Shown: piece after piece, positions 46,028 to 63,765 of the stretch | Numbering within the stretch: position 1 is the stretch's first letter | How the letters are laid out: every line of letters begins with the position of its first letter | NCBI RefSeq assembly: GCF_014526325.1 | Contig: NZ_JACNMJ010000008.1 | Span: 62,001 to 126,000, forward strand | Source: Psychroserpens algicola | GTDB lineage: Bacteria > Bacteroidota > Bacteroidia > Flavobacteriales > Flavobacteriaceae | Length of the DNA: 64,000 bases | Reading direction: 5' to 3' | Notes under the pieces: model-generated | What the model was told of the DNA's origin: nothing | Seen by the model: only the letters and a program-made list of their open reading frames with translations | Database searches by the model: none | Position numbers and translations under genes: made by a program

Positions 46028-46057
46028 TTGCACAATTAATAAATATGATTATATTTG
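46028..46057 (+). promoter_or_regulatory. Promoter of the first alginate transcription unit
   Basis: TTG (46028-46030, within a T run), a 19-nt spacer and TATATTTG (46050-46057), a perfect consensus. The last three bases of the -7 box are the first bases of the operator, so a bound regulator would block RNA polymerase. Confidence 0.8.
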
Positions 46058-46080
46058 GTAAACCAGATTGGTAAACCAAT
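46055..46080 (+). promoter_or_regulatory. Double operator, site 1 (alginate regulon)
   Basis: Two copies of TGGTAAACCA (starting 46056 and 46069) separated by GAT, with flanking TT and AT that extend the second to ATTGGTAAACCAAT. The same 13-bp-spaced pair occurs at 57556 and 60449, each at a promoter of the locus. TTGGTnnACCAA resembles sites of GntR-family UxuR/ExuR-type regulators. Confidence 0.82.
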
Positions 46081-46090
46081 TTTGATTATA

Positions 46091-47023
46091 ATGAAAAACA
46101 CACTAAAATTTAATCTTACAGTACTCTTCATAAGTTTGTTTTTTTTTCCAAATTTTGGATGCTCTAGCGATACTGATAATGAAGGTGATCCACAGATTAT
46201 TGATGAAGTTATTGAGGAGGAGGAAGAAGAGGAAGAGAGTCCTGTTTATGCAGAAGTTGACTTTTCAAATTGGAAAGTGACACTCCCTGTTGATGAAAAT
46301 AATAATGGGAGTCCTGATGAATACCAGCCAAACGTATTGATTAATTATGGTTACCAAACCTTAGAGCCAGTTCAGCCATATATGTATGATGATATTTCTG
46401 ATAGTTCATTAGTGTTTTATACATTTCCTGATGTGTCTACAACCAATAGTTCGTATTCTAGAACCGAATTGAGAGAGCTTATAAATCCGAGTAATTCAAG
46501 AGAAAATTGGACGCTTTTAGAAGGAGGAGAAATGACAGGAAGACTTAAAGTTGATGCGGTCTCAGAAAATAACGAGTCTAGTGATGACTATCACAAAGTC
46601 ATAGTAATGCAAATTCATGGTATTATTTCAGAAGATGATATGAATACTCATGGTTTTTCATCGAATAACGGGCCACCTTTAATTAAGATTTACTGGAAAG
46701 ATGGACATGTTTGGTGTCACAAAAAATCGCTTGTTGATGAATCGACTTCAGGAGATGATTTATATGATGTTTATAATGGAACTTGGGCTGATATAAAAGT
46801 GAATTTAGGATACGTTGGTTTTGAACCATTTAATTTTAGAATAACAGCTTCTGATGCCCGAATAGAAGTGCAATTAAATGAAGACGAGCCTTATATATAT
46901 GAAGATATTAGTTTAGAAAAATGGCCTTTTGAAAATTATTTTAAAGCAGGAAATTATTTAACCTCCACTAATGCTGATGCATTTTCATATGTGAAATATT
47001 ATAATTTGAGTATCACCCACTAA
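46091..47023 (+). CDS. Alginate lyase, PL7 family, lipoprotein
   Basis: Endolytic alginate lyase, 310 residues. The lipobox ends at Cys24 (PNFGC), followed by an acidic linker with a run of about ten Glu/Asp residues before the catalytic domain, which suits surface display. The PL7 active-site motifs are RTELRE, QIHG (Gln-x-His) and YFKAGNYLTS, the last being the conserved C-terminal strand. The catalytic domain begins near FSNWKVTLPVDE. The ATG at 46091 is used; the in-frame TTG at 46055 is part of the operator. It is the first gene of the main alginate unit. Confidence 0.92.
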   Translation: MKNTLKFNLTVLFISLFFFPNFGCSSDTDNEGDPQIIDEVIEEEEEEEESPVYAEVDFSNWKVTLPVDENNNGSPDEYQPNVLINYGYQTLEPVQPYMYDDISDSSLVFYTFPDVSTTNSSYSRTELRELINPSNSRENWTLLEGGEMTGRLKVDAVSENNESSDDYHKVIVMQIHGIISEDDMNTHGFSSNNGPPLIKIYWKDGHVWCHKKSLVDESTSGDDLYDVYNGTWADIKVNLGYVGFEPFNFRITASDARIEVQLNEDEPYIYEDISLEKWPFENYFKAGNYLTSTNADAFSYVKYYNLSITH

Positions 47024-48972: not shown

Positions 48973-51279
48973 ATGAAAAAAATCATTTATCTATGTTTTA
49001 TAACACTCCTTTGGTTAGGCTGTGAAGAAAAGTCAAATAAAAATTCTATTGTAGTTCATGATGCAGAAGAATTAAATCAGGCGATAACAAATTGTAAAGC
49101 AGGAGATGAAATTATTTTAAGTAATGGCGTTTGGAAAGATGTAGAAATTAAATTTACTGGTGAAGGCACTAAAGACAAGTCAATTACCTTAAAAGCAGAA
49201 ACTGCTGGAAAAGTGTTTATTGAAGGAGAATCAAGTTTAGAAATTAGCGGAAATTACTTAGAAGTTAATGGTTTGTTTTTTAGAAACGGACATTCGCCAA
49301 AAGATAATGTTATTGCGTTTAGAACCAGTCAAAAAGACGTCGCTAACCATTCTAAAGTAACCAATTGTGTGATTTTAGATTTCAACAATTTAGAGCGCGA
49401 TCAAGACAATCTTTGGGTGCAGCTTTACGGAAAGCATAACGAATTAAGTAACTGTTATATTGCTGGTAAGACCAATGGCGGACCAACAGTAAGAGTGGAT
49501 TTAAAAGGAAACCAAAGTATAAGAAATTATCACAAAATAATTAATAATCACTTTGGTCCTAGACCACGAAAAGGTGGTGCAAGAGGTGAAACCATTCAGT
49601 TAGGAAGTAGTTTCACGTCTATGAGTCCGAGTAACACATTAATCGCAAATAATTTATTTGAGGAATGTAACGGCGAAGTTGAAATCATTTCAAGTAAAAC
49701 CAATTTCAATATCATTAAAAACAATGTGTTTTACAAAAGTGAAGGCTCCGTAGTTACAAGACATGGTAACTATGTTGCTGTTGATGGCAACTATTTTATT
49801 GGCAATGGTGAAAACGATCAGTATGGTGGCATTAGAATTATCAATACTGGTCACTGGGTGACGAATAACCTGTTTTACAAAATAAAAGGCAAGAATTTTA
49901 GAAGTCCGATTGCAATTATGAACGGCATTCCAAAATCGCCTTTAAATAGATACAACCAAGTGACTGATGTTGTTGTGGCTTACAATACCTTTGTAGATTC
50001 CGATTCGCCATGGCAATTTGGTGTTGGTACAAATATATCACAGGCAGATGTATTGCCAGAGTCTGAAATTCGCTCAGCAAGAGCTTTAAGAACTGAAGTC
50101 GTCAATAACATTATTTATAATTCTGAAGGTGATCCAAACCCAATAATTGAGCATGATAAAGCTGATGGTGTCACCTTTGCGAGTAATATTATTGATAACA
50201 ATGGTGTGCCATTCGAAAAACGTGAAGGTTTAACAGCTTTGGAATTAACGCTGACAGATATAGGCTCAGATCTACGTGTGCCTATTTCAGGATATAGTGA
50301 TGTTGAAGTGTATAACGGTTTTGATTTTGAAACGATCACGGAAGACTTACTAGGAAACTCAAGAAGTAAATCCAATCAAATTGGAGCGATTTTAAAAGGA
50401 GACAACATCAATTTAGACCTCTTAGATAAATCAAAATATGGTGCAGATTGGTATTCAAATGAAGTTGAAGCTAAAGACCCTAAAACGCATACTGTTTCAA
50501 ATGCTTCAGAATTAGTGGCTAAACTTAAAGAAGCCGAAAGTGGTGATATTATAGCTTTAAATGATGGTGTTTTTAAGATTTCAGAATCCTTAGTCATTGA
50601 CAAAACGATCACTTTTCAATCCAATGGGAATTCAGAAATTAAATATGAAGGTGCAGCAAATACACCAGCATTTTCATTACAACCTTACGGAAAATTAACA
50701 GTTAAAAACATCAAGTTAAAAGGGAATAATACTAATTATGCCTTTGCGAGTTTAAAAAAGAATATGTCTAATCATTTTGGTTTAGAAGTTTTTGATGCTG
50801 AAATCAGTAATTTTAATTATGCATTAAGGGTTTATAAACAAGCCTTTTCTGAAGAAATCACATTCAAAAACACGTCTATTTCCGACTGTGAAAATGGGAT
50901 TGAATTATCTGAAGAAACCAACGACAGAGGCGATTATAACACCGAGTATCTTACCATAGATAATTGTAATTTCAATAATGTCAAACAAAATGTCATCGAT
51001 TATTATCGAGGTGGTTATGACGAGTCTACCATTGGAGGAAATCTTTTAATAACCAACAGCACCTTTACAAATTGCGGAGAAAATGAAAAAAACAAAAGGT
51101 TATTTAACCACAACGGAATTGTAAATGTGAACATCAATAACAACACCTTCAAAAACAATAAAGTAAAATTTGTCTCTATTCTTTGGGGCGCAAAAAATAA
51201 TGTAGAATCAAATAATACAGTCATTAATTCAGGTGAAATTAAGACCGAAGAAAATTTAGTTATGACATTGATGTATTAA
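48973..51279 (+). CDS. Alginate lyase, PL6 family, two-domain lipoprotein
   Basis: 768-residue protein with a lipobox ending at Cys17 (TLLWLGC). Residues 25-490 form a PL6 chondroitinase-B-like beta-helix. Lys242 (EIISSKTNF) and Arg263 (VVTRHGNY) have the spacing of the catalytic Lys/Arg pair of PL6 AlyGC, and Glu235 and Glu237 match its calcium ligands; the asparagine ligand appears to be Ala203. Residues 500-768 form a second beta-helix (SNASELVAKLKEAESGDIIA), as in dimeric two-domain PL6 lyases. It likely cleaves poly-G or mixed blocks. It is followed 18 nt later by a PL7 gene. Confidence 0.9.
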   Translation: MKKIIYLCFITLLWLGCEEKSNKNSIVVHDAEELNQAITNCKAGDEIILSNGVWKDVEIKFTGEGTKDKSITLKAETAGKVFIEGESSLEISGNYLEVNGLFFRNGHSPKDNVIAFRTSQKDVANHSKVTNCVILDFNNLERDQDNLWVQLYGKHNELSNCYIAGKTNGGPTVRVDLKGNQSIRNYHKIINNHFGPRPRKGGARGETIQLGSSFTSMSPSNTLIANNLFEECNGEVEIISSKTNFNIIKNNVFYKSEGSVVTRHGNYVAVDGNYFIGNGENDQYGGIRIINTGHWVTNNLFYKIKGKNFRSPIAIMNGIPKSPLNRYNQVTDVVVAYNTFVDSDSPWQFGVGTNISQADVLPESEIRSARALRTEVVNNIIYNSEGDPNPIIEHDKADGVTFASNIIDNNGVPFEKREGLTALELTLTDIGSDLRVPISGYSDVEVYNGFDFETITEDLLGNSRSKSNQIGAILKGDNINLDLLDKSKYGADWYSNEVEAKDPKTHTVSNASELVAKLKEAESGDIIALNDGVFKISESLVIDKTITFQSNGNSEIKYEGAANTPAFSLQPYGKLTVKNIKLKGNNTNYAFASLKKNMSNHFGLEVFDAEISNFNYALRVYKQAFSEEITFKNTSISDCENGIELSEETNDRGDYNTEYLTIDNCNFNNVKQNVIDYYRGGYDESTIGGNLLITNSTFTNCGENEKNKRLFNHNGIVNVNINNNTFKNNKVKFVSILWGAKNNVESNNTVINSGEIKTEENLVMTLMY

Positions 51280-51297: not shown

Positions 51298-52320
51298 ATG
51301 AAGAAATCGCTATTTATTTTCCTTATTCTTTTAACAATATTGTCTTGTAAGGACGAAGCAAAAAAAACTGAAACTAACACTGAAGTTGAAACTGAAACAA
51401 CTGTAAAATATCCAAGTGACGTTATTCCGTTTATGGACAAATGGAAAATACTTTTGGGTGATGGGACTTATGTAGACAGCTTAGTCAACTATCAAAAAGA
51501 CGATTTCTTTTATGTTGAAAACGACGGTCAAACCGATTGGGTTGTCTACAAAACGCCAAATTCTGGAGTCACTTCTAGAACCTCTAGTAATACAAGAACT
51601 GAGTTAGGTGAAAAAGCACATTGGATTCCAGAAGAAGGCGGAAAGCTAACGGGAACACTCAAAGTGCAGCACGTGTCCACTACAGGACATGCCAATGTTT
51701 CATCCTCTTTTTCAGTAGTTATTGGGCAAATTCATAGTGACGAAGGTCATGAAAATGAACCGCTTAAAATCTTCTATAAAAAATTCCCAGGCCATACAAA
51801 AGGCTCTGTGTTTTGGAATTACGAAATCAATACTGAAGGTGATAATTCAGGACGATGGGATTATTCTACCGCAGTTTGGGGTTATGACTTTTCGGTTAAA
51901 GGACCAGATGAAACTACTAATCCTGAAGAGCCAAAAGATGGCATTGCTTTAGGTGAAGCGTTTAGTTATGAAGTAAATGTTCATAAAGGAATCATGTATT
52001 TAACGTTTACAAGTGAAGGTCATGACACAAAAACGTTTACTAAAAGTTTAATCAAATCAGATTTTTCTACACAAGAAGCAATTCCACAACAGATTATTGA
52101 TGTGTATGCTTCCAGAAGAACACCAGGTGTAGAACGAGAAATTGCTTATGCTGGTGAGATTAATTATTTCAAACAAGGTGCTTATAATCAGGCTAACGGA
52201 AAGAGTACCAAGTCTGAAACCTATGGAGGCGATATTGCAAAGCAGTATGAAAATGGAAGTTATGCTGAGGTTTGGTTTAAAGAGGCGACGGTTGGTCCAT
52301 CTACTGACCCCAATAAATGA
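51298..52320 (+). CDS. Alginate lyase, PL7 family, lipoprotein (paralogue B)
   Basis: 340 residues with a lipobox at Cys17 (LLTILSC). The PL7 motifs are NTRTELGE, VIGQIHSDEG and YFKQGAYNQ. A long insert relative to the first PL7 contains KIFYKKFPGHTKGSVF and RWDYSTAVWGYDFSV, shared almost identically with the lyase at 55536. The two are clear paralogues within one operon. The GntK-Gnd fusion starts 11 nt after its stop. Confidence 0.92.
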   Translation: MKKSLFIFLILLTILSCKDEAKKTETNTEVETETTVKYPSDVIPFMDKWKILLGDGTYVDSLVNYQKDDFFYVENDGQTDWVVYKTPNSGVTSRTSSNTRTELGEKAHWIPEEGGKLTGTLKVQHVSTTGHANVSSSFSVVIGQIHSDEGHENEPLKIFYKKFPGHTKGSVFWNYEINTEGDNSGRWDYSTAVWGYDFSVKGPDETTNPEEPKDGIALGEAFSYEVNVHKGIMYLTFTSEGHDTKTFTKSLIKSDFSTQEAIPQQIIDVYASRRTPGVEREIAYAGEINYFKQGAYNQANGKSTKSETYGGDIAKQYENGSYAEVWFKEATVGPSTDPNK

Positions 52321-52331
52321 AATAAGGAACA

Positions 52332-54224
52332 TTGAATAAAGTCATATTTATAATGGGTGTTTCTGGTTGTGGTAAAAGTACCATCGGAACATTACTTGCT
52401 GAAGAATTAAAGATTCCTTTTTTTGATGGTGACGATTTTCATCCTAAGGAAAATATAAAAAAAATGGCAAGTGGTCAGCCTTTGAATGATGAGGATAGAC
52501 AAGGTTGGCTGGAGACATTAAATACATTAGCGACACAGCAACTAGCTAAAAACAGTTGCGTTATTGTATGTTCTGCATTAAAACAAAAGTATCGTGATAT
52601 ATTAAGTTTAGATATTAAATCCAGAACAAAATGGGTGTTTTTGTCTGGGTCTTTTAATGAGATTTTTATAAGGGCAAATGCTAGGAAAGATCATTTTATG
52701 CCTTCGGAATTATTACAATCACAGTTTGATATTTTAGAAGAACCCGAAGGTGCCTTAAAGATTAATATTGAAGTAACACCAGAAAACATTGTAAAAAGGA
52801 TAAAAAGCAAATTAATGAATACTTCAGAATTTGGATTGTTTGGCTTAGGTGTTATGGGAAAAAGCCTGTGCCGAAACTTAGCTAAGAACAGTTTTAAAAT
52901 TGCTATGTTCAACAGGCATGTTGATGGTGTTGAAGTTGATGTGGCTAAAAACTTTAAAGCTGAGCATCCCGAATTATCTGAAGCTGCTGCTTTTGATAAT
53001 ATTTCAGCATTTGTAAATGCCTTAGAAACACCAAGAAAAATTATGCTCATGGTGAATGCAGGTAAAACAATCGATTACGTCATTGAAGATTTGCTACCTC
53101 ATTTATCTGTTGGTGATATTTTAATTGATGGTGGAAATTCCAACTATAAAAAAACAAAAGAACGCTTCGAGTATTTAAAATCTAAAGGCATTCATTTTAT
53201 AGGAACAGGTGTTTCTGGTGGTGAAGAAGGTGCTCTAAAAGGACCATCTATTATGCCAAGTGGAGATCAAGAAGCGTATAACAATGTGAAGCCTTTTCTG
53301 GAAAAAATTTCTGCAAAAGACCAAAATAACTTACCGTGTTGCACCTATGTTGGACCCGAAGGTAGTGGTCATTTTATTAAAATGGTACACAATGGTGTCG
53401 AGTATGTTGAAATGCAATTACTGGCTGAAGTTATCACTATTTTGGAAGCTTCGGGTCATAACTTAGATGCGATTGCTAACATTTTAGAAACCTGGAAAAA
53501 CACGGCGAATAGCTATTTGTTAGAAATAACTATAGATATTTTAAGAACAAAAGAAGGTAATGATTGGCTGGTAAAAAAGATACTGGATAAGGCAGGAAAT
53601 AAAGGCACAGGAAACTGGACAACTATTGCTTCAGCCGAATTGGGCGTACCGAGTACATTAATCGCTTCGGCGTTGTTTGCAAGATATACCTCATTTTATA
53701 AAGAGGAACGTATGCAGTTAGATGCTAATTTTAAAAGTGAAACCATTTCAGATGTACAGGTGTCTTCAACCGAAATTTTAGAAGCCTATCAGTTTGCAAG
53801 AATTATCAATCATTATCAAGGTTTTAAACTCATTGCTGAAGCTTCAGATAAATTCTCATGGAACTTAAATTTAAGTGAAATTGCTAGAATCTGGACAAAC
53901 GGTTGCATCATAAGATCAACATTAATGGAAGCATTAGTTGAAGTCTTCAAAAAGACAACGAATATATTAACCGACTCGCAATTGATAGCATCAATAAAAC
54001 ACTACAAACCATCTGTTAAAAAGGTGGTGTCGCAATGTGTGCTTAATGATATTACAGCATCATGTCTGAGTGAATCTATTCAGTTTTTTAACGGAATGAC
54101 AACTGTAGATTCTTCAGCAAATATCATTCAGGCGCAACGTGATTATTTTGGAGCGCATACATACAAAAGAAATGATGATGATGGCGTGAAAAGTCATCAC
54201 ACCATTTGGAATAAAACAAACTAA
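52332..54224 (+). CDS. Fused gluconokinase / 6-phosphogluconate dehydrogenase
   Basis: 630-residue bifunctional protein. Residues 1-160 are a GntK-type kinase with P-loop GVSGCGKST (9-17) and DGDDFHPKENIKKM; they would phosphorylate gluconate. Residues 165-630 are a decarboxylating 6-phosphogluconate dehydrogenase with the NADP motif GLGVMG (171-176), DGGNSNYKKT, GVSGGEEGALKGPSIMPSG, KMVHNGVEY and GNKGTGNWT. Product: ribulose 5-phosphate. The TTG start (52332) is supported by AAGGA just upstream; the next Met, residue 8, would remove the first strand. Met162 at the junction (ATG 52815) may mark the former gnd start. Such a fusion in an alginate operon is unexpected. Confidence 0.9.
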   Translation: MNKVIFIMGVSGCGKSTIGTLLAEELKIPFFDGDDFHPKENIKKMASGQPLNDEDRQGWLETLNTLATQQLAKNSCVIVCSALKQKYRDILSLDIKSRTKWVFLSGSFNEIFIRANARKDHFMPSELLQSQFDILEEPEGALKINIEVTPENIVKRIKSKLMNTSEFGLFGLGVMGKSLCRNLAKNSFKIAMFNRHVDGVEVDVAKNFKAEHPELSEAAAFDNISAFVNALETPRKIMLMVNAGKTIDYVIEDLLPHLSVGDILIDGGNSNYKKTKERFEYLKSKGIHFIGTGVSGGEEGALKGPSIMPSGDQEAYNNVKPFLEKISAKDQNNLPCCTYVGPEGSGHFIKMVHNGVEYVEMQLLAEVITILEASGHNLDAIANILETWKNTANSYLLEITIDILRTKEGNDWLVKKILDKAGNKGTGNWTTIASAELGVPSTLIASALFARYTSFYKEERMQLDANFKSETISDVQVSSTEILEAYQFARIINHYQGFKLIAEASDKFSWNLNLSEIARIWTNGCIIRSTLMEALVEVFKKTTNILTDSQLIASIKHYKPSVKKVVSQCVLNDITASCLSESIQFFNGMTTVDSSANIIQAQRDYFGAHTYKRNDDDGVKSHHTIWNKTN

Positions 54225-54228
54225 TATT

Positions 54229-55503
54229 ATGGAAACAACATCACCGAAGACATCGTTACTTAAAAAAATTATTGCCATAGTATTAGGGTTTGGTCCTGGT
54301 ATTTTTGCCATAGGTTATACCATAGGTACAGGTAGTGTGACGTCTATGATTGTTGCAGGAAGCAAATTTAATATGCAACTGCTTTGGGTGCTTTTATTAA
54401 GTTGTATCTTCTCTGGTGTACTTATGTTTGCTTATGGAAACTACGGATTGATAACAGGTGAAACAGCACTCTACGGATTTAAAAAACACCTAAAATATGG
54501 TAAAGCTTTAGCCATATTAATCATTATAGGTATCACCTTTGGGCAATGGAATTCCTTAATGGGAATTCTGGGGATTTCTTCAAATATCATTTATGAAATC
54601 TTAAATGTAAACTTTGATGGTTTAGCAGATTATAAATATCAAACTGTTTTAATAACAGCCATGATCATCATCATTACATTCTACCTCTTAATGCTTGTTG
54701 GTAAGTACACGTTTTTTGAAAAAATACTGGTCATTTTTGTTACCTTAATGGGATTCTCATTTATACTTTCGTTGTGTTTTGTGCAACCACTTCCAATGGA
54801 TGTTGTAAAAGGATTAATTCCAACCATCCCAGATGTTCCTGGTGGTAAAATGCTAGTAGCTGCTTTTGTTGGTACGACGATGGCTTCAGCTACCTTTTTA
54901 TCCAGACCCTTATTTGTAAAAGGAAAAGGTTGGACGATTAAAAACTTAGATCAACAAAAAAAGGATTCTATTACAGCTGCGATTTTAATATTTATTATTA
55001 GTGGCGTCATTATGGCAGTCGCTGCAGGTGCTTTATATTATCAAGGTAAAGAGGTGAGTCAAGTACTAGATATGGCAAATACTTTAGAACCAGTAGCAGG
55101 TAAATGGGCGGTTACTATTTTCTTTTTTGGAGCGTTAAGTGCAGGTTTATCTTCTATTTTTCCGTGTTTATTAATAGCCCCTTTATTAATTGCCGATTAC
55201 CAATCTGGAGAGTTAGATACCAATTCTAAACAATTCAGGATTATAACCTTTATCGCTTGTTTGGTGGCTTTAATTGGTCCAGCTTTTGGTGCCAATCCTA
55301 TTGAAGTTCAAATTCTTTCTCAAGTATTTAATGTATTTGTATTGCCAGCCGTTGTATTAGGAATCATTTTAATGGTCAATAGTAAAAAAATAATGAAAAA
55401 CTATAAAACAGGGTTGGGCGTTAACATCGGACTTTTTGCAGCACTGTTCTTTTCATTAGTCATTTCATATAACGGGATAGTTGCACTAACAGAATATTTC
55501 TAA
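54229..55503 (+). CDS. Nramp-fold transporter lacking canonical metal motifs
   Basis: 424-residue membrane protein with about eleven helices and the N-terminal pattern of the Nramp/APC fold (GFGPGIFAIGY). The metal-binding DPGN of helix 1 is replaced by GTGS (33-36), and the helix 6 Met-Pro-His motif by Met218-Ala-Ser220. True Mn/Fe transport is therefore unlikely. It lies 4 nt after the GntK-Gnd fusion and 32 nt before a PL7 lyase, inside the alginate unit, so uptake of an alginate-derived or other sugar acid, such as DEH, KDG or gluconate, is a reasonable hypothesis. Database labels would probably say divalent metal transporter. Confidence 0.75.
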   Translation: METTSPKTSLLKKIIAIVLGFGPGIFAIGYTIGTGSVTSMIVAGSKFNMQLLWVLLLSCIFSGVLMFAYGNYGLITGETALYGFKKHLKYGKALAILIIIGITFGQWNSLMGILGISSNIIYEILNVNFDGLADYKYQTVLITAMIIIITFYLLMLVGKYTFFEKILVIFVTLMGFSFILSLCFVQPLPMDVVKGLIPTIPDVPGGKMLVAAFVGTTMASATFLSRPLFVKGKGWTIKNLDQQKKDSITAAILIFIISGVIMAVAAGALYYQGKEVSQVLDMANTLEPVAGKWAVTIFFFGALSAGLSSIFPCLLIAPLLIADYQSGELDTNSKQFRIITFIACLVALIGPAFGANPIEVQILSQVFNVFVLPAVVLGIILMVNSKKIMKNYKTGLGVNIGLFAALFFSLVISYNGIVALTEYF

Positions 55504-55535: not shown

Positions 55536-56639
55536 ATGAATAAAAAAACAAGCACAATAGCACTTTGTATTTTATGTGCCATTTTTACACTGAATAGCTG
55601 TAAGAATGCAGCTGAAAAGGTAGAAGAAACAACTGAAGGAAAAGAGACTGAAAAAACAGTATTTGCCAGTGATGTCATTCCGTTTTTTGATCATTGGAAA
55701 TTAATTTTAGGTGATGGATCTAATGTTGGAATTGCCAATAACTTTGAAAACAAGGATTACTTTTATACAACTAACGATGGTAAAAATAATTGGGTGGTTT
55801 TTAAAACACCTAATGGAGGCAATACACATGGCACCTCAAATAATACAAGAACCGAATTAGCACAAACCAAAAAATGGTATCCTAAAACAGCAGATGATAA
55901 ATTAACAGCAACCTTAAAAGTTATGAATGTATCTGCTACTGGAGATGCACGCGTTGCGGCTTCGCATGCGGTTGTTGTAGGACAAATTCATAGTGCAGAT
56001 AAGCACGAAAATGAACCTTTAAAAATTTTCTACAAAAAATTTCCAGGTCATACCAAAGGCTCTGTGTTTTGGCATTATGAAATCAATACAGCTGGTGATG
56101 ATAATTCAGGACGCTGGGATTTTTCTTCTGCAGTTTGGGGACATGATTTTTCAGTAGTTGGTGATACAGAAAACACCTATCCTGAAGAACCAAAAGATGG
56201 GATTGCTTTAGGTGAAGAATTTAGTTATGAAGTGGTAGTTAAGGATGGTATTATGACTTTGAAGTTTACAAGTGAAGGTCATGAAACCAAGACCTTTACT
56301 AAAAACTTAATTGAATCCGAATACACAACAAAAGCAGATATCCCAGAGCAAACGCAAAAACTATTTGTACCTATTGGTCAGGATGGTGTGGAACGGAAAG
56401 AAGCTTATGCAGGTGAAGGCTGTTTTTTTAAACTTGGTGCCTACAATCAAACCAATGGAAAATCACCAAAAGTAAATAGAAACTGGTGTTCTGGAGCTGA
56501 AACCCATGATGGTGATGTTCAAAAACAATATGCCGACGGAAATTACGCGGAAGTTTGGTTTAAAACGGGAAGTATTTCAGTAAGCGACAATGCTGTATCT
56601 AACGAAGGCTATTTTAGTAAAAATGATAAAGTAAAATAA
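55536..56639 (+). CDS. Alginate lyase, PL7 family, lipoprotein (paralogue C)
   Basis: 367 residues with a lipobox at Cys22 (FTLNSC). PL7 motifs are NTRTELAQ, VVGQIHSADK and FFKLGAYNQ. Long segments match the paralogue at 51298, including NEPLKIFYKKFPGHTKGSVF, but the C-terminus carries an extra loop (NRNWCSGAETHDGD) with a cysteine and a short extra tail. It lies between the Nramp-fold gene and the SDR gene (12 nt). Confidence 0.92.
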   Translation: MNKKTSTIALCILCAIFTLNSCKNAAEKVEETTEGKETEKTVFASDVIPFFDHWKLILGDGSNVGIANNFENKDYFYTTNDGKNNWVVFKTPNGGNTHGTSNNTRTELAQTKKWYPKTADDKLTATLKVMNVSATGDARVAASHAVVVGQIHSADKHENEPLKIFYKKFPGHTKGSVFWHYEINTAGDDNSGRWDFSSAVWGHDFSVVGDTENTYPEEPKDGIALGEEFSYEVVVKDGIMTLKFTSEGHETKTFTKNLIESEYTTKADIPEQTQKLFVPIGQDGVERKEAYAGEGCFFKLGAYNQTNGKSPKVNRNWCSGAETHDGDVQKQYADGNYAEVWFKTGSISVSDNAVSNEGYFSKNDKVK

Positions 56640-56651
56640 ATTAGAATAGAG

Positions 56652-57419
56652 ATGATAAATAATAAACTTTCAGGAAAAAACATATTAATCACAGCAGGAG
56701 CACAAGGAATAGGCGAAGCCATTACCAAGCATTTTATAGATAGTGGCGCTAATGTTGCCATTCACTACTTTTCGAGTGCCGATACTGCCAATACCTTGGT
56801 TGATTACGCAACTAGTAAAGGACTAAAAGCAGTTGCCATTAGTGGTGATTTAACAAAAGAATCGGATGCAAATGCTTTAGTTGAAAAAACAGTGGAAACC
56901 TTGGGAAGCTTAGACATACTTATTAATAACGCAGGTTCATTGGTTGCTCGCAAAATGCTTAATGAATTAGAAGCTGACTTCTGGCATAAAGTTATGGATA
57001 TAAACATGACATCTATGCAATTTGTAACGCGAGCTGCTGCTCCTTATTTGGCAAAAAATGGCAACAGTAGTATTGTTAATTTGGCATCACTTGCAGGACG
57101 AAAAGGCGGACATCCAGGTTCATTAGTGTATGCAACTAGTAAAGGAGCCATCCTAACTTATACGCGTGCACTTTCAACGGAACTTGGTCCAAAAGGGATC
57201 CGTGTTAATGCGGTTGCACCTGGTTTAATTTTAGGAACATCATTCCATAATACACACACAACAAAAGAATCTGCAGCCAAAACAATTGAAGGTATACCTA
57301 TTAATCGCGCAGGAAATGCTGACGATGTTGCTAGAGCAGTTTTATATCTAGCATCTGAATATGATGGCTTTATTACAGGTGCAACGCTTGATATTAATGG
57401 TGGTGTGTACAATATGTAG
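56652..57419 (+). CDS. SDR oxidoreductase, probable DEH reductase
   Basis: 255 residues of the classical short-chain dehydrogenase family. The NAD(P) motif is TAGAQGIG (14-21), NNAG is at 92-95, and the catalytic residues are Ser146, Tyr160 and Lys164 (YATSK). In alginate catabolism this family reduces 4-deoxy-L-erythro-5-hexoseulose uronate (DEH) to 2-keto-3-deoxygluconate, and the position at the end of the lyase operon supports that role. A generic SDR of other function cannot be excluded by sequence alone. Confidence 0.82.
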   Translation: MINNKLSGKNILITAGAQGIGEAITKHFIDSGANVAIHYFSSADTANTLVDYATSKGLKAVAISGDLTKESDANALVEKTVETLGSLDILINNAGSLVARKMLNELEADFWHKVMDINMTSMQFVTRAAAPYLAKNGNSSIVNLASLAGRKGGHPGSLVYATSKGAILTYTRALSTELGPKGIRVNAVAPGLILGTSFHNTHTTKESAAKTIEGIPINRAGNADDVARAVLYLASEYDGFITGATLDINGGVYNM

Positions 57420-57588: not shown

Positions 57589-59859
57589 ATGAAAAATCTA
57601 TCATCATTTGTATTCATTTTAGTTGCTGTTTTAGCAACCACATTTTCATGTAAAGATGAGGTTACCTCTGATCCAGCTAATGAGAATCAAACAATTTCTG
57701 ATGAACACCCAAAACTAATTTTGACTGCTCAAGGCGTCAACGATATTAGAGCTCAGTTAGGAACCATCCCAATTTTTGATAACACCTTAGCCAAGGTAAA
57801 AGAAGAAATAGATGCCGAAATTGAAGCAGGTATCGAAGTGCCAATTCCAAAAGATTATTCTGGTGGTTACACGCATGTACGACACAAACGTAATTGGGTC
57901 GTATTGCAAAAAGCAGGTGTATTATATCAAATTTTAGATGATGAAAAATATGCCAAATATGTCAAAGACATGTTAATGCAATATGAAGCTTTGTATAAAA
58001 CTTTACCGCTTCATCCAAAAACAAGATCTTATGCTAGAGGTAAATTATTCTGGCAATGTTTAAATGATTCTAATTGGTTAGTGTATGTGAGTCAGGCCTA
58101 CGATTGTATTTATAATTATTTGTCTGAAGAAGAGCGCAACAAATTAGAAACAAATCTGTTTAGACCATTCGCAGATCATATTTCAATTGATAGTCCGCAG
58201 TTTTATCAGAGAGTTCACAATCATAGTACCTGGGGAAATGCAGCAGTAGGTATGATTGGTTTAGTAATGGACGATCAGGAATTGATTGATCGTGCTTTAT
58301 ACGGCATTAAAGATTTAAAACTGGATGCTACAAAAAAAGATGATGATGGCGGATTTTTAAACAAAGATGGAAAAGCCGGTTTTTTAGCCAATATAGAAGA
58401 ACCTTTTTCACCAGATGGCTATTATAATGAAGGACCATACTACCAACGCTACGCTATGTATCCTTTTTTAATTTTTGCAGAAGGTTTGCATAATGTAAAA
58501 CCCGAATTAAAAATATTTGAATACAAAGAAGGCGTATTACTAAAATCAATAAATGCCTTATTGAACTTATCAGATGCCGATGGTGATTTTTTTCCGCTTA
58601 ATGATGGTCAAAAAGGTATGTCATATTACAATAGCGCTTTAGTTACAGCAGTAGATATTTCATATCATTATGGAGACCAAGATCCTGGTTTATTAAGTAT
58701 TGCCAAAGAGCAAAACCAAGTATTGTTAGACGATTCTGGTTTGGCTGTAGCTTTAGGTATTAAAAACGGAGAATCTAAACCCTTCACTAAAACATCTATC
58801 AACTTATCTGATGGACAAAATGGAACTCAAGGTGGCGTGGCTATTTTAAGGAACGAGAATATTGAGTTGGTGTTTAAGTATGCAGCACAAGGCTCTAGCC
58901 ATGGTCATTATGATAAATTGTCCTATTCATTATATGAAAACGGAGAAGAGGTTATTCAAGATTATGGCTTAGCTCGTTTTGTAAATATCGAGCAAAAAGG
59001 AGGCGGAAATTACCTAAAGGAGAACAAAACTTGGGCAAAACAAACCATTGCGCATAACACCTTAATACAAAACGAAAACTCTCATTTTAATGCGAAATAT
59101 GATATAGGAAGTCAGCATCATTCGGTACTACATTATTTTTCTTCAGAAAATGAAAATGTACAAGCAGCAAGTGCCAAAGAACCTAATGCCTATCCTGGAA
59201 CAGAAATGCTTCGTACGATGGCTGTCATTAAAGATGAAGATTTTGAAAAGCCATACATGCTGGATATTATGAAGGTAACTTCGGCTTCAACGAACCAATA
59301 TGATTTTCCTTTTTATTATTTCGGACAAGTATTACAAACTAATTTTGAATACAAGACAAAAGAAACTTTACAAGCTTTGGGGAGTAAAAATGGATATCAA
59401 CATTTATATTTAGAAGCTAGAGCAAAAGCAAATAGTGATAATTCTAAATTTTCATGGTTCAACAATAATAAATTTTATACACTAACAACTGTAACTAATA
59501 ATAATGATGAATTGTTATTCACAAGAATTGGTGCTAACGATCCTGAATTTAATTTACGTCGTGATCCAGCATTAATACTTAGAGCAAAAACTACAAAAAA
59601 CAGAATATTTGTTTCTGTAATAGAAGCACATGGAAGTTATAGTCCAGTGACAGAATCTGCTAAGAACTCAAACAGTAATATCAAAAAATTAGATGTTGTT
59701 TTAGATACTGAAGATTATACTGCAATTTCTATCACCACTATAAACGATAATACTAAACTATTTATAACATCAAATACCAATGCTTCAAAAGAGGCAAAAC
59801 ATAACATAACAATCAACGATAAGAACTATGAGTGGTCGGGTTCTTATTATTTCAAATAA
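57589..59859 (+). CDS. Oligoalginate lyase, PL17 family, lipoprotein
   Basis: 756-residue exolytic lyase that releases unsaturated uronate monomers. The lipobox ends at Cys21 (ATTFSC). An N-terminal alpha-barrel domain (about 40-380) carries VHNHSTWGNAAVG (Asn211, His212) and the Tyr-rich YYNEGPYYQRYAMYPF segment (278-293), which match the catalytic region of PL17 enzymes such as Alg17c. The C-terminal heparinase II/III-like beta domain has GSSHGHYDKLSYSLYENG and AHNTLIQNE. It is the first gene of a two-gene unit with kdgF. Confidence 0.92.
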   Translation: MKNLSSFVFILVAVLATTFSCKDEVTSDPANENQTISDEHPKLILTAQGVNDIRAQLGTIPIFDNTLAKVKEEIDAEIEAGIEVPIPKDYSGGYTHVRHKRNWVVLQKAGVLYQILDDEKYAKYVKDMLMQYEALYKTLPLHPKTRSYARGKLFWQCLNDSNWLVYVSQAYDCIYNYLSEEERNKLETNLFRPFADHISIDSPQFYQRVHNHSTWGNAAVGMIGLVMDDQELIDRALYGIKDLKLDATKKDDDGGFLNKDGKAGFLANIEEPFSPDGYYNEGPYYQRYAMYPFLIFAEGLHNVKPELKIFEYKEGVLLKSINALLNLSDADGDFFPLNDGQKGMSYYNSALVTAVDISYHYGDQDPGLLSIAKEQNQVLLDDSGLAVALGIKNGESKPFTKTSINLSDGQNGTQGGVAILRNENIELVFKYAAQGSSHGHYDKLSYSLYENGEEVIQDYGLARFVNIEQKGGGNYLKENKTWAKQTIAHNTLIQNENSHFNAKYDIGSQHHSVLHYFSSENENVQAASAKEPNAYPGTEMLRTMAVIKDEDFEKPYMLDIMKVTSASTNQYDFPFYYFGQVLQTNFEYKTKETLQALGSKNGYQHLYLEARAKANSDNSKFSWFNNNKFYTLTTVTNNNDELLFTRIGANDPEFNLRRDPALILRAKTTKNRIFVSVIEAHGSYSPVTESAKNSNSNIKKLDVVLDTEDYTAISITTINDNTKLFITSNTNASKEAKHNITINDKNYEWSGSYYFK

Positions 59860-59921: not shown

Positions 59922-60302
59922 ATGAAACGATTTAGTGAAAAGTATATCATTACTAAAGATATGGAATGGGAAGAACTTGGAGGAGGAGTCTCAAGAAAGT
60001 TTTTAGGATATGATAACCAAATCATGATGGTAAGAGTAAAATTTGAAAAAGGTGCATTAGGTTCACCGCATCAACATTTTCATACACAAGCTACATTTTG
60101 TGTGTCTGGTAAATTTGAATTTGAAATTGATGGTGTAAAGCAAATTGTTGAAGCAGGAGATGGCGTGTATATTGAGCCTAATTTGTTACATAGTGCTGTT
60201 TGTTTAGAAGAAGGTGAGTTGATTGACACATTTAGCCCAGTAAGAGAAGATTTCTTAAGTGGTGACGGAGTATCTTATTTTGGAGACAAGAATTCAAAAT
60301 AA
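59922..60302 (+). CDS. kdgF: KdgF-type cupin, unsaturated uronate ring opening
   Basis: 126-residue cupin. The metal ligands expected for KdgF are His50, His52, Gln56 and His90 (SPHQHFHTQATF, PNLLHSAVCLEEG). KdgF converts the cyclic 4,5-unsaturated monouronates made by exolyases to linear DEH. It follows the PL17 gene by 62 nt and precedes the susC promoter, in line with the known co-occurrence of KdgF with alginate and pectin pathways. Confidence 0.9.
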   Translation: MKRFSEKYIITKDMEWEELGGGVSRKFLGYDNQIMMVRVKFEKGALGSPHQHFHTQATFCVSGKFEFEIDGVKQIVEAGDGVYIEPNLLHSAVCLEEGELIDTFSPVREDFLSGDGVSYFGDKNSK

Positions 60303-60657: not shown

Positions 60658-63600
60658 ATGAATTTAAAAAACAAACTACCGCTACTCTTTGCACTGTTGT
60701 TTAGTGTGACAGTGTTAGCACAAGAAAGCTTCTTGCTTAGAGGTACAGTTGTTTCAGAAGTTGAAAAGCAACCTATTCCAGGTGTGAACGTTTTAGTTCT
60801 TAACACTACAAGAGGTGCATCCACAGATTTTGATGGGAACTTTGAAATCAGAGTTTCAAGTGGTGAAGTCCTACAATTTTCTTATTTAGGATACGTCACA
60901 AAAACAGTAATTATTGATAACCAGACAACTTTAACAGTCTCATTAGCCGAAGATGCAGCTAAATTAGATGAAGTTGTTGTTATTGGTTATGGTACTCAAA
61001 AGAAAAGCCATTTAACTGGAGCGATATCGAAAGTTAAAAATGAGAAGCTTGATCAAATTCCTGTTTCAAGGGTTGATGATGCTTTAATTGGTCAGGTTTC
61101 TGGGGTTAATATTCAAGCGACAAATGCTGAAGCAGGTGGAGCGCCTACTATTACCATTAGAGGTGTAGGGTCAATTACCGCCGACTCTGGTCCAGCAGTA
61201 GTGGTTGATGGTGTTGTTGTAAGTTCTGATTTCTTAGGAAACTTAGATATGAACGATATTGAGTCTTTTGAAGTTTTAAAGGATGCTGCATCTGCAGCAA
61301 TTTATGGTAGTGAAGGATCTAATGGTGTAATTCTTATTACAACAAAAAGTGGTAAGGAAGGAAAAACCAGATTTAGCTACCAAACATATACAGGTTTTAA
61401 AGAAGCTCACGGAAGTGATGATTATAGAAAAAGTGTGGCTGATTGGGCTAGAATTGAACAAGCAGCAACAGGAACATTATCAGGTGAAACTCTTTATGCA
61501 CAATTACTAGTTGCAACTACAGGTGTTGATAGAGATTGGCAAGATGTATTTTTTGATGGAGGGACGGTAACAAGTCATTCATTTGCTGCTAGAGGTGGTT
61601 CAGAAACTACTAAGTTTAGTACATCTTTAAGATATCTTCATGATGAAGGTGTTGTTATTACAGATGATTTTAAATTATATACAGGATCATTAAAAGTAGA
61701 TTCTAAATTAGGAGAAAAATTTAAATTCGGTATTCGTGCAACTCCGTCTTATACAGAGCAAAGACGATTACCAACATCTATACACAATCCAATACGTCAA
61801 TCACCATGGTTACCTATTTACCATACCGAAGAGACGCTTCAATTTGTTAATCAAGATACTTATCCAGATATTGGTGTAGGGGATTACTTCTACGAAAACC
61901 ATTTAATTAATTTAGATTTGGATAATGATGGTAACAATGAAAGACCTCGTACTTCAGGTGATTCTAACCCATATGCACAATATGTAGAAAGAGAGCATTA
62001 TGAATATAATACTAAATTATACGGGTCTACATTTTTAAGCTATGAGATTTTAGAAGGCTTAACTGCAAAAACATCACTTGGTGTTACTTTAGAGCAGCGT
62101 AAAAGAACAAGATGGGATGGTACACAACATCATGCCGCTGGAGCTAGTAGAGCGCAATATAATTTGCAAAATAGATTCCGAACGAGATTAGTTTCTGATA
62201 ATACACTATCTTATAATAAGATATTTAATGATGATCATGAAATCAATGTGTTAGCAGGTTTAACTGTTCAACAAAGAAAAAGTGAAGACAGTGATATTAC
62301 TGGAAATGGTTATTCAAATGATTTACTTCCAAACCTTCAGGGAGCAACTTCAATTTCTGAGTATGGAGAAATCAATACTGAGCTAAAAAAAGTAGGTTAC
62401 TTTGCTAGGGTAAATTATGCTTATAAAGATAAATATTTATTTAATGCTTCTTTTAGACGTGATGGTAGTTCTGTTTTTGGTATCAATTCAAAGTGGGGTA
62501 ATTTCCCTGCAGCATCGATAGGTTGGAATGTTCATAATGAAGATTTCTTAATCGATAGTGATGTGATAAACAACTTAAAACTAAGAGTAAGTTATGGTTT
62601 TACTGGTGCTGAGAATTTTAATGTAGGTAATGATATCGTAAATGTATGGCCTTACTTAGCATTATTGCAAAATTCAAATGCTATTACAGAAGGAAGTATA
62701 TCTCCTGGTGTTTCTCCTCTTAACATTGCAAATGCTTTATTACAATGGGAAGCTTCTGAAGAATTTAACCCAGCAATTGATTTTGGATTTTTTAATAACA
62801 GAATATCAGGATCTTTAGATTACTACCAAAGAACTAGTGACGAGTTACTATTAGAAAATCCTGTATCTTATATTACTGGATTTACAAGTGGTATTGTAAA
62901 TTTAGGTGAGGTGCAAAACAGAGGATGGGAATTAGAATTAAGAACTAAAAATGTGGCTAAAGAGAATTTCTCTTGGAATACAACGTTAATTGCGTCTACT
63001 AACCAAAATGAATTATTAAGTTTTGGAGATTCTAACAATGCTCTTATCGAAGATACTTATGGTAGAAACTCACAATGGATTAACCGAATTGGAGAGCCAA
63101 TATCATCGTTTTGGGGATATGTTGTAGATACAGAAGCATATAACGAAACTGAATTTAGAACAACTTATGTTGATAACCCTTGGAATCGTATTAACGGTCA
63201 GGCAGATGATACTATCGTAAAGGATTTAAATGGTGATGGAATTATTACAGAAGAGGATAAAACAATTCTTGGTGATCCTTACCCAGATTTAGTATATAGT
63301 TTAACTAACGAATTTAAATTCGGAGCCTTTGATTTTTCTTTCATGATTCAAGGTAGCGTAGGTGCTCAAGTAAATAATATTGGTGATCAATATTTCTACA
63401 ACTGGTTTGGAAATAGAACTAGAAGTGGTGGTGAAGCTCAAGCCGTAGCTGATGGACTTGTACCACATGAATCTTTTATACAAGAAAAGGTGTTAACAAG
63501 CGAGGTTATCGCAAGTGCTGATTACTTCTCATTACGTAATGTAAGTCTTGGTTTCAATTTGCCAGAGGATTTAACATCAGAATTAGGTATCGAAGGATTG

Positions 63601-63765
63601 AGACTTTATGCAACTGCACAAAACCTGATTTATATCACTGCTGATGATTATCACGGTTTTAACCCAGAGCATATCGATGGAACTAACCCTAGAGCTTATG
63701 GTTCTCAAAGAGCGGGTACACCTATATTTAAAACAGTAACATTCGGTCTGAATATCGACTTTTAA
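60658..63765 (+). CDS. SusC-type TonB-linked outer-membrane transporter, alginate
   Basis: 1035-residue TonB-dependent transporter of the SusC/RagA family. A signal peptide (LLFALLFSVTVLAQ) is followed by a carboxypeptidase-regulatory-like domain (RGTVVSEVEKQPIPGVNVLV, about 28-105), the TonB box and plug start (LDEVVVIGYGTQKKSHLTGA), and plug motifs including VVDGVVV and ASAAIYGSEGSNGVILITTK, both typical of SusC. The barrel ends in FKTVTFGLNIDF. It lies directly before a SusD-like gene, and shared operators tie it to the lyase units, so alginate oligosaccharides are the likely substrate. Confidence 0.93.
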   Translation: MNLKNKLPLLFALLFSVTVLAQESFLLRGTVVSEVEKQPIPGVNVLVLNTTRGASTDFDGNFEIRVSSGEVLQFSYLGYVTKTVIIDNQTTLTVSLAEDAAKLDEVVVIGYGTQKKSHLTGAISKVKNEKLDQIPVSRVDDALIGQVSGVNIQATNAEAGGAPTITIRGVGSITADSGPAVVVDGVVVSSDFLGNLDMNDIESFEVLKDAASAAIYGSEGSNGVILITTKSGKEGKTRFSYQTYTGFKEAHGSDDYRKSVADWARIEQAATGTLSGETLYAQLLVATTGVDRDWQDVFFDGGTVTSHSFAARGGSETTKFSTSLRYLHDEGVVITDDFKLYTGSLKVDSKLGEKFKFGIRATPSYTEQRRLPTSIHNPIRQSPWLPIYHTEETLQFVNQDTYPDIGVGDYFYENHLINLDLDNDGNNERPRTSGDSNPYAQYVEREHYEYNTKLYGSTFLSYEILEGLTAKTSLGVTLEQRKRTRWDGTQHHAAGASRAQYNLQNRFRTRLVSDNTLSYNKIFNDDHEINVLAGLTVQQRKSEDSDITGNGYSNDLLPNLQGATSISEYGEINTELKKVGYFARVNYAYKDKYLFNASFRRDGSSVFGINSKWGNFPAASIGWNVHNEDFLIDSDVINNLKLRVSYGFTGAENFNVGNDIVNVWPYLALLQNSNAITEGSISPGVSPLNIANALLQWEASEEFNPAIDFGFFNNRISGSLDYYQRTSDELLLENPVSYITGFTSGIVNLGEVQNRGWELELRTKNVAKENFSWNTTLIASTNQNELLSFGDSNNALIEDTYGRNSQWINRIGEPISSFWGYVVDTEAYNETEFRTTYVDNPWNRINGQADDTIVKDLNGDGIITEEDKTILGDPYPDLVYSLTNEFKFGAFDFSFMIQGSVGAQVNNIGDQYFYNWFGNRTRSGGEAQAVADGLVPHESFIQEKVLTSEVIASADYFSLRNVSLGFNLPEDLTSELGIEGLRLYATAQNLIYITADDYHGFNPEHIDGTNPRAYGSQRAGTPIFKTVTFGLNIDF

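Follow-up and report, generated by a model that had tools for sequence, protein, structure and literature searches.

A probable sugar-acid carrier with an Nramp fold and without the canonical metal ligands in an alginate operon of Psychroserpens algicola

An alginate operon of Psychroserpens algicola encodes a protein with an Nramp fold (424 aa, 54229-55503; positions refer to the window, the whole 64,000-nucleotide stretch of DNA analysed, in which all genes described lie on the + strand), raising the question of what such a protein carries among alginate lyases. It matches PF01566 (Nramp superfamily) across the whole domain with 219 bits against a cut-off of 29.8, EleNRMT and DraNramp are the top Z matches of its structure model (pLDDT 66), and its NCBIfam label is ‘Nramp family divalent metal transporter’ (83 bits, cut-off 50). 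The absence of the metal ligands and the sugar-acid context described below are both real and conserved. Judged from motifs and neighbours, the best reading of the protein is most likely a sugar-acid carrier; it would be a secondary carrier of the inner membrane, probably moving a sugar-acid anion (uronate or aldonate) and not a metal.

The operon comprises, in order, a PL7 alginate lyase (46055-47023), a secreted protein, a PL6-type lyase (Pfam Chondroitinase B, 48973-51279), a second PL7 lyase (51298-52320), a gluconokinase of the GntK/IdnK type fused to an NADP 6-phosphogluconate dehydrogenase (GK-6PGDH, 52332-54224), the carrier, a third PL7 lyase (55536-56639), the short-chain reductase SDR1 (56652-57419), a PL17-type oligoalginate lyase (57589-59859; NF042990, 672 bits, below the 1400-bit cut-off), a cupin (59922-60302) that may be KdgF-like given its position, and a SusC-like TonB-dependent receptor whose sequence was read by eye (60658-63765). 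Both halves of the fusion score above their models’ cut-offs (TIGR01313, 175 bits over 113.75; TIGR00873, 510 over 426.7). The carrier had been described as lying 4 nt after a sugar-acid enzyme and among lyases, and so it does: the enzyme is the GK-6PGDH fusion, and PL7, PL6 and PL17 genes surround the pair. SDR1 is a candidate uronate reductase, acting on L-guluronate or DEH; in a comparison with sequences of solved structures, many FabG-like enzymes resembled it as closely as known DEH reductases did.

The same polysaccharide utilization locus (PUL) continues past the window end (locus L139) with genes for a SusD-like protein, a PL7 lyase, a GntR-type regulator, an MFS transporter, a second short-chain reductase (SDR2), a PfkB-type kinase and a KDPG aldolase. 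The aldolase scores above its model’s cut-off, and the PfkB protein is nearest to KDG kinase models with scores below their cut-offs. By sequence, SDR2 is probably the DEH reductase DehR and the PfkB protein probably KDG kinase, so that this PUL probably contains the common DEH route together with an MFS importer to serve it. The original prediction, that no other inner-membrane importer accompanies the lyases, is thus contradicted just past the window, and the carrier would belong to something additional to the DEH route.

Neighbourhoods were tallied for the best 80 of 259 loci with close relatives of the carrier (best segments 81-99% identical), genes being matched to the window proteins by BLAST and some loci ending at contig ends. 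The nearest 5′ gene was the fusion in 60 loci, 6PGDH in 5, GK in 4, PL7 in 7 and another gene in 4. That GK, 6PGDH or their fusion stands nearest upstream in 69/80 of these relatives is a new observation; together with PL7 the figure is 76/80, the opposite of the predominance of metal-homeostasis genes that the original prediction had named as counter-evidence. The other four 5′ genes were a CorA metal-transporter gene ~780 nt away (L035), a DHFR gene (L071) and opposite-strand genes in L066 and L067; with one CorA and one DHFR neighbour, a metal-gene context did not emerge as the rule. Downstream, the nearest gene was PL7 (41), GntR (14), PL6-like (14), SDR1 (6), PL17 (3) or another gene (2). 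A lyase-like gene occurred within the locus in 73/80 and an SDR1-labelled gene in 65/80, and some of the 15 loci missing the latter end at contig ends.

Five of the seven loci without a lyase keep the fusion, the carrier and SDR1 together. Seven genomes were searched for PL7, six whose carrier locus shows no lyase and one with linked lyases, and all seven have it; the occurrence of the trio in genomes without an alginate lyase was therefore ruled out. Among the 11 genomes without GK/6PGDH beside the carrier, both are found elsewhere in 10, the exception being L035, the locus with the CorA gene, and an SDR1-labelled gene is retained in 10 of the 11 loci. The kinase and dehydrogenase beside the carrier form one ORF in 60 of the 80 loci and two overlapping ORFs in five (L004, L005, L052, L070, L072), while the kinase stands alone in four (L034, L060, L074, L081). 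In Winogradskyella echinorum (L004) the carrier is 99% and the 6PGDH 95% identical to those of P. algicola, the split kinase only 74%.

These neighbourhoods bear on a first alternative, a substrate variant of the sugar-acid reading whose odds overlap with it: the carrier could move KDG, DEH or an unsaturated oligomer and so repeat what the MFS importer does for the main DEH pathway, with GK-6PGDH as a bystander. Besides the persistence of SDR1-labelled genes where GK/6PGDH is not beside the carrier, such a role is suggested by loci from a more distant search, in which 57 of 395 genomes from the phylum had a match at 1e-20, GPGT and DPGN types (see below) included. In L117 (72% identical) the carrier follows genes for an MFS transporter, a short-chain reductase, a KDG-kinase-like PfkB protein, PFK and KDPG aldolase; by ORF clustering, L118 shares these genes and L116 all but the aldolase, kinase and PFK included. 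However, the gene nearest upstream in most close relatives encodes GK and/or 6PGDH, and an MFS importer with a probable DehR, KDG kinase and aldolase is already at hand in the same PUL, so we consider this alternative unlikely.

The site columns of the carrier were read after aligning it to 28 canonical Nramps from the same phylum. The canonical D-P-G-N columns of TM1 hold G33-T34-G35-S36, which bears out the predicted GTGS in place of DPGN. In TM6, whose sequence is GTTMASATFLSR with Arg226, the canonical T-V-M-P-H-N columns hold T217-M218-A219-S220-A221-T222; the earlier reading of MAS for MPH was off by one, and the aligned residues are ASA, the Met metal ligand being replaced by Ala. Arg226 occupies the TM6 His column of the DPGN and GPGT groups (H237 of DraNramp by count), and a search for an acidic residue in TM3, residues 101-118, found none. 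Canonical metal Nramps (clades A-C) are defined by DPGN in TM1, MPH in TM6 and a Glu near the site in TM3, and the carrier has none of the three. The view that the metal-coordinating residues are gone while the fold is kept is thus upheld by the changed ligand columns, the PF01566 match and the structural proximity to Nramps. The protein also proved distinct, as proposed, from the Mg-type Nramp-related carriers (NRMTs), which are reported to retain the TM1 Asp and a DxxG-TxxA/T pattern (PMC8806188); the carrier reads GxxS-TxxA, fitting the TM6 half and not the TM1 half.

In an unrooted IQ-TREE tree of 80 proteins, one branch with 100/100 support separates 36 GTGS rows; long branches were flagged, including three within the GTGS group (L103, L104 and the row from E. 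coli). Motif classes partition the 80 rows exactly: GTGS with Arg (36), DPGN with His (28), GPGT with His (13) and others (3). All 36 clade members lack the metal ligands of TM1 and TM6 and carry GTGS and the TM6 Arg, a combination that, as a new observation, marks a single clade apart from the DPGN metal Nramps and the GPGT type. A Glu in the TM3 segment occurs in 12 of the 36, the P. algicola carrier not among them. Across 17 aligned members, the 16 others being 34-88% identical to the carrier, I32-G33-T34-G35-S36, G215-T216-T217 and R226 are invariant, and by alignment these residues appear to coincide with the positions that hold the substrate in Nramps. The original suggestion of an uncharacterised sugar-acid transporter survives as a probable sugar-acid carrier with an Nramp fold. 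Its derivation from Nramp is not supported: our tree is unrooted, and according to the available part of a preprint Nramp-related proteins without the motifs are paraphyletic and fall outside the canonical metal Nramps (PMC12873925), so that the metal site may have arisen later.

A second alternative, which we judge improbable, holds that the carrier imports a divalent metal (Mn, Fe or Mg) through an altered site and supplies a cofactor to the lyases, the kinase or 6PGDH of the operon. It would agree with the NCBIfam label and with the CorA gene preceding the carrier in L035. The P. algicola genome holds three Nramp-family genes, none with DPGN, which leaves room for a metal role; and, in the portion of the study available to us, DraNramp D56A retains binding of both Mn and Cd, so loss of the Asp need not abolish Mn2+ binding (PMC10185341). 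On the other side, the same variant transports neither metal (PMC10185341), the NRMTs keep the TM1 Asp that the carrier lacks together with the TM1 Asn, the TM6 Met and a TM3 acid, and the gene nearest upstream in close relatives is GK/6PGDH or PL7 in 76/80 loci. A working divalent-cation site therefore appears unlikely on sequence grounds.

The question of acid or metal is the same for another Nramp type. The available text of one report describes PxpT, a YcsG homologue of the Nramp family, as required for growth of Corynebacterium glutamicum on 5-oxoproline, its authors leaving metals possible (PMC13274462), and B. subtilis YcsG, a further point in favour of a metal role, is called a Mn2+ importer in the excerpt of another (PMC10448178). 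Like the carrier, PxpT and YcsG belong to the Nramp family and to operons of carboxylate catabolism, although the acid concerned is N-heterocyclic and not a sugar acid; the likeness is drawn through the second Nramp-family gene of P. algicola (L001, C9:445257-446414), not through the PxpT or YcsG sequences. Next to L001 lie two carboxyltransferase-domain genes, pxpB/C-like, and a gene that by eye resembles pxpA, by sequence a 5-oxoproline arrangement. It shares with the carrier a Gly at the TM1 Asp position and differs in its GPGT / VVPYN / His signature, 28% identity and separate clade. The carrier is not of this Pxp type, lying on the GTGS and not the GPGT branch (100/100); the GPGT signature comprises 13 rows of the tree, which holds no PxpT or YcsG sequence, L001 and L138 standing beside pxp- or oxoprolinase-type genes. 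The third Nramp-family gene (L003, C15:51924-52952), ~9 kb left of the window, has the loops GVSH / MPAPLD; its two neighbours, identified by eye, are a sigma-70-like gene and a lipoyl-synthase-like one.

Returning to the reading as a sugar-acid carrier, the P. algicola genome was searched for glucose-6-phosphate dehydrogenase (G6PDH) and for GntP (PF02447), and neither gave a match, while the fusion is the only 6PGDH found in it. Barring some unknown enzyme, 6-phosphogluconate should then come from the kinase, and 6PGDH looks like part of a gluconate-type catabolism and not of the ordinary oxidative pentose phosphate pathway. A G6PDH search of 12 further carrier-bearing genomes likewise returned no match in any (0/12), so that all 13 searched have a 6PGDH match and no G6PDH match. 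In an even draw of 199 Flavobacteriaceae genomes scored for GK/6PGDH matches and PL7, 88 had GK/6PGDH matches, 33 of the 47 with PL7 versus 55 of the 152 without (p 5e-5). Strict alginate specificity of GK/6PGDH was thus borne out only in part, since the pathway also occurs outside alginate users. For the GK/6PGDH type of at least 65% identity, PL7 was present in 10/10 such genomes compared with 37/189 of the others in the same draw.

From the observed motifs, clade and gene context we infer the carrier’s fold detail, anion binding, direction, coupling ion and substrate. The GTGS loop of TM1 and the GTT loop of TM6, with the Arg further along that helix, would stand where Nramps have the unwound segments that grip Mn2+, and a carboxylate would find backbone amides and a positive charge there; in APC amino-acid transporters the GSG loop makes a comparable carboxylate contact. 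A sugar acid brought into the cytoplasm would, if a uronate, be reduced at its aldehyde by SDR1, and the aldonate would be phosphorylated by GK and decarboxylated by 6PGDH to ribulose 5-phosphate with formation of NADPH. In the alginate operon the preferred substrate would be L-guluronate, from saturated alginate ends, or D-gluconate. Checked by configuration, reduction of L-guluronate at C1 and renumbering gives D-gluconate, as D-mannuronate gives D-mannonate. The available parts of two reports state that a Sphingomonas DEH reductase oxidises D-gluconate, giving L-guluronate, with 79% of the efficiency it shows on KDG, a value for that direction alone (PMC6011931), and that saturated disaccharides yield an equimolar saturated monomer with a PL17 lyase (PMC12336832). 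With this chemistry, SDR1 and GK-6PGDH could plausibly recover the saturated residue that remains from the non-reducing end of each chain, and the cluster may salvage saturated ends for which the DEH route has no use; these should be a small amount, a minor product of alginate. The specific route from L-guluronate to D-gluconate is nevertheless doubtful.

Several distant members of the clade adjoin KDG- or KDGal-type kinases and aldolases or a beta-glucuronidase, and the E. coli member belongs to a CoA-transferase operon, which is new here. L120 (56%) has the carrier with a KDGal kinase, an aldolase and an SMP-30 lactonase, and L119 (59%) has PL6-type and PL7 lyases upstream. A beta-glucuronidase gene lies directly 3′ of the carrier in 6/6 loci of one subgroup (L122-L125, L128, L129; 37-38%), all from a single family. 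PDB searches identified it in L123 and L124 (E 9e-130 and 1e-134), clustering in the other four; each protein has an N-x-K-G motif and, by eye, no obvious signal peptide, and GH20/GH84-like neighbours also occur. Directly upstream of the carrier, the same six loci encode a protein of 845-861 aa; the 861-aa protein of L123 had no match in Pfam or among PDB sequences, nor had a 433-aa neighbour among PDB sequences. GH88/GH127-like (weak) or GH84/GH20-like genes and a xylose-isomerase-like protein adjoin the carrier in L127 and L131-L133. The E. coli order (L150) is LacI, CoA transferase, enoyl-CoA hydratase, GTGS carrier and FAD oxidoreductase, the operon being at least 80% present in 546 of 5426 complete genomes and present in some part in 825. 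A carboxylate would be the common factor of most of these neighbourhoods. Against the sugar-acid reading stand the TM3 Glu in a third of the clade rows and four distant members that adjoin other genes and no sugar-acid enzyme (L126, asparaginase-type; L130, amidohydrolase; L134, histidine kinase; L121, phosphoesterase), as do the second importer of the PUL, the 15 close-relative loci missing an SDR1-labelled gene and the GK/6PGDH matches in genomes without PL7. A role as sugar-acid exporter or in acid-stress relief (overflow of gluconate or KDG) is very improbable, for although transport direction is not readable from sequence, the partner kinase and dehydrogenase are catabolic and distant loci hold a beta-glucuronidase without an obvious signal peptide.

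We tentatively propose, as a scheme with less than even prospects, that GTGS proteins are widespread carriers of carboxylates, mostly sugar acids, from Bacteroidota to E. coli; that, taken with the 5-oxoproline type, they point to an origin of metal Nramps from organic-acid carriers; and that in alginate degraders they feed a second, undescribed branch in which the SDR would reduce saturated L-guluronate to D-gluconate, GK would phosphorylate this to 6-phosphogluconate and 6PGDH would turn the product into ribulose 5-phosphate, yielding NADPH in cells without G6PDH. Gluconate permeases GntP/GntT and the glucuronide carrier GusB are partners of gluconokinase or beta-glucuronidase, a comparable genomic role filled by families different from that of the carrier. 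Canonical Nramp/MntH proteins (DraNramp, BfraNramp) share its fold and have the DPGN, MPH, TM6 His (Arg in the carrier) and TM3 acid that it lacks, and the Mg2+ carrier EleNRMT (7qia), in the part of its description available, keeps a TM1 Asp and TM3 Glu where the carrier has Gly and no acid. In open-licence PMC text, the only mention found of an Nramp in alginate systems, in the accessible portion of one paper, is an Alteromonas protein labelled a metal-ion transporter (PMC6431674). Alginate models, in the sections available, treat the monomer as unsaturated (DEH) (PMC6353982, PMC13390454, PMC5334617); the gluconate branch, if true, would add to them and provide a source of NADPH. Two GTGS members, the P. 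algicola carrier (NCBIfam) and the E. coli copy (RefSeq), are labelled divalent metal transporters; should the clade prove to move sugar acids, labels of this kind are wrong, several polysaccharide loci gain a named candidate for their inner-membrane step, and the origin of Nramp metal selectivity becomes testable by comparing GTGS, GPGT and DPGN proteins.

Some minor features of the family were also recorded. The E. coli GTGS operon (L135, L150) has dnaB and qorA on either side; strain STO_Bone7 has its GTGS gene split in two ORFs, and in one listed strain ISEcp1 and CTX-M-14 genes lie within the locus. Two canonical DPGN Nramps, L154 (626 aa) and L161 (622 aa), carry a fused C-terminal universal stress protein domain.
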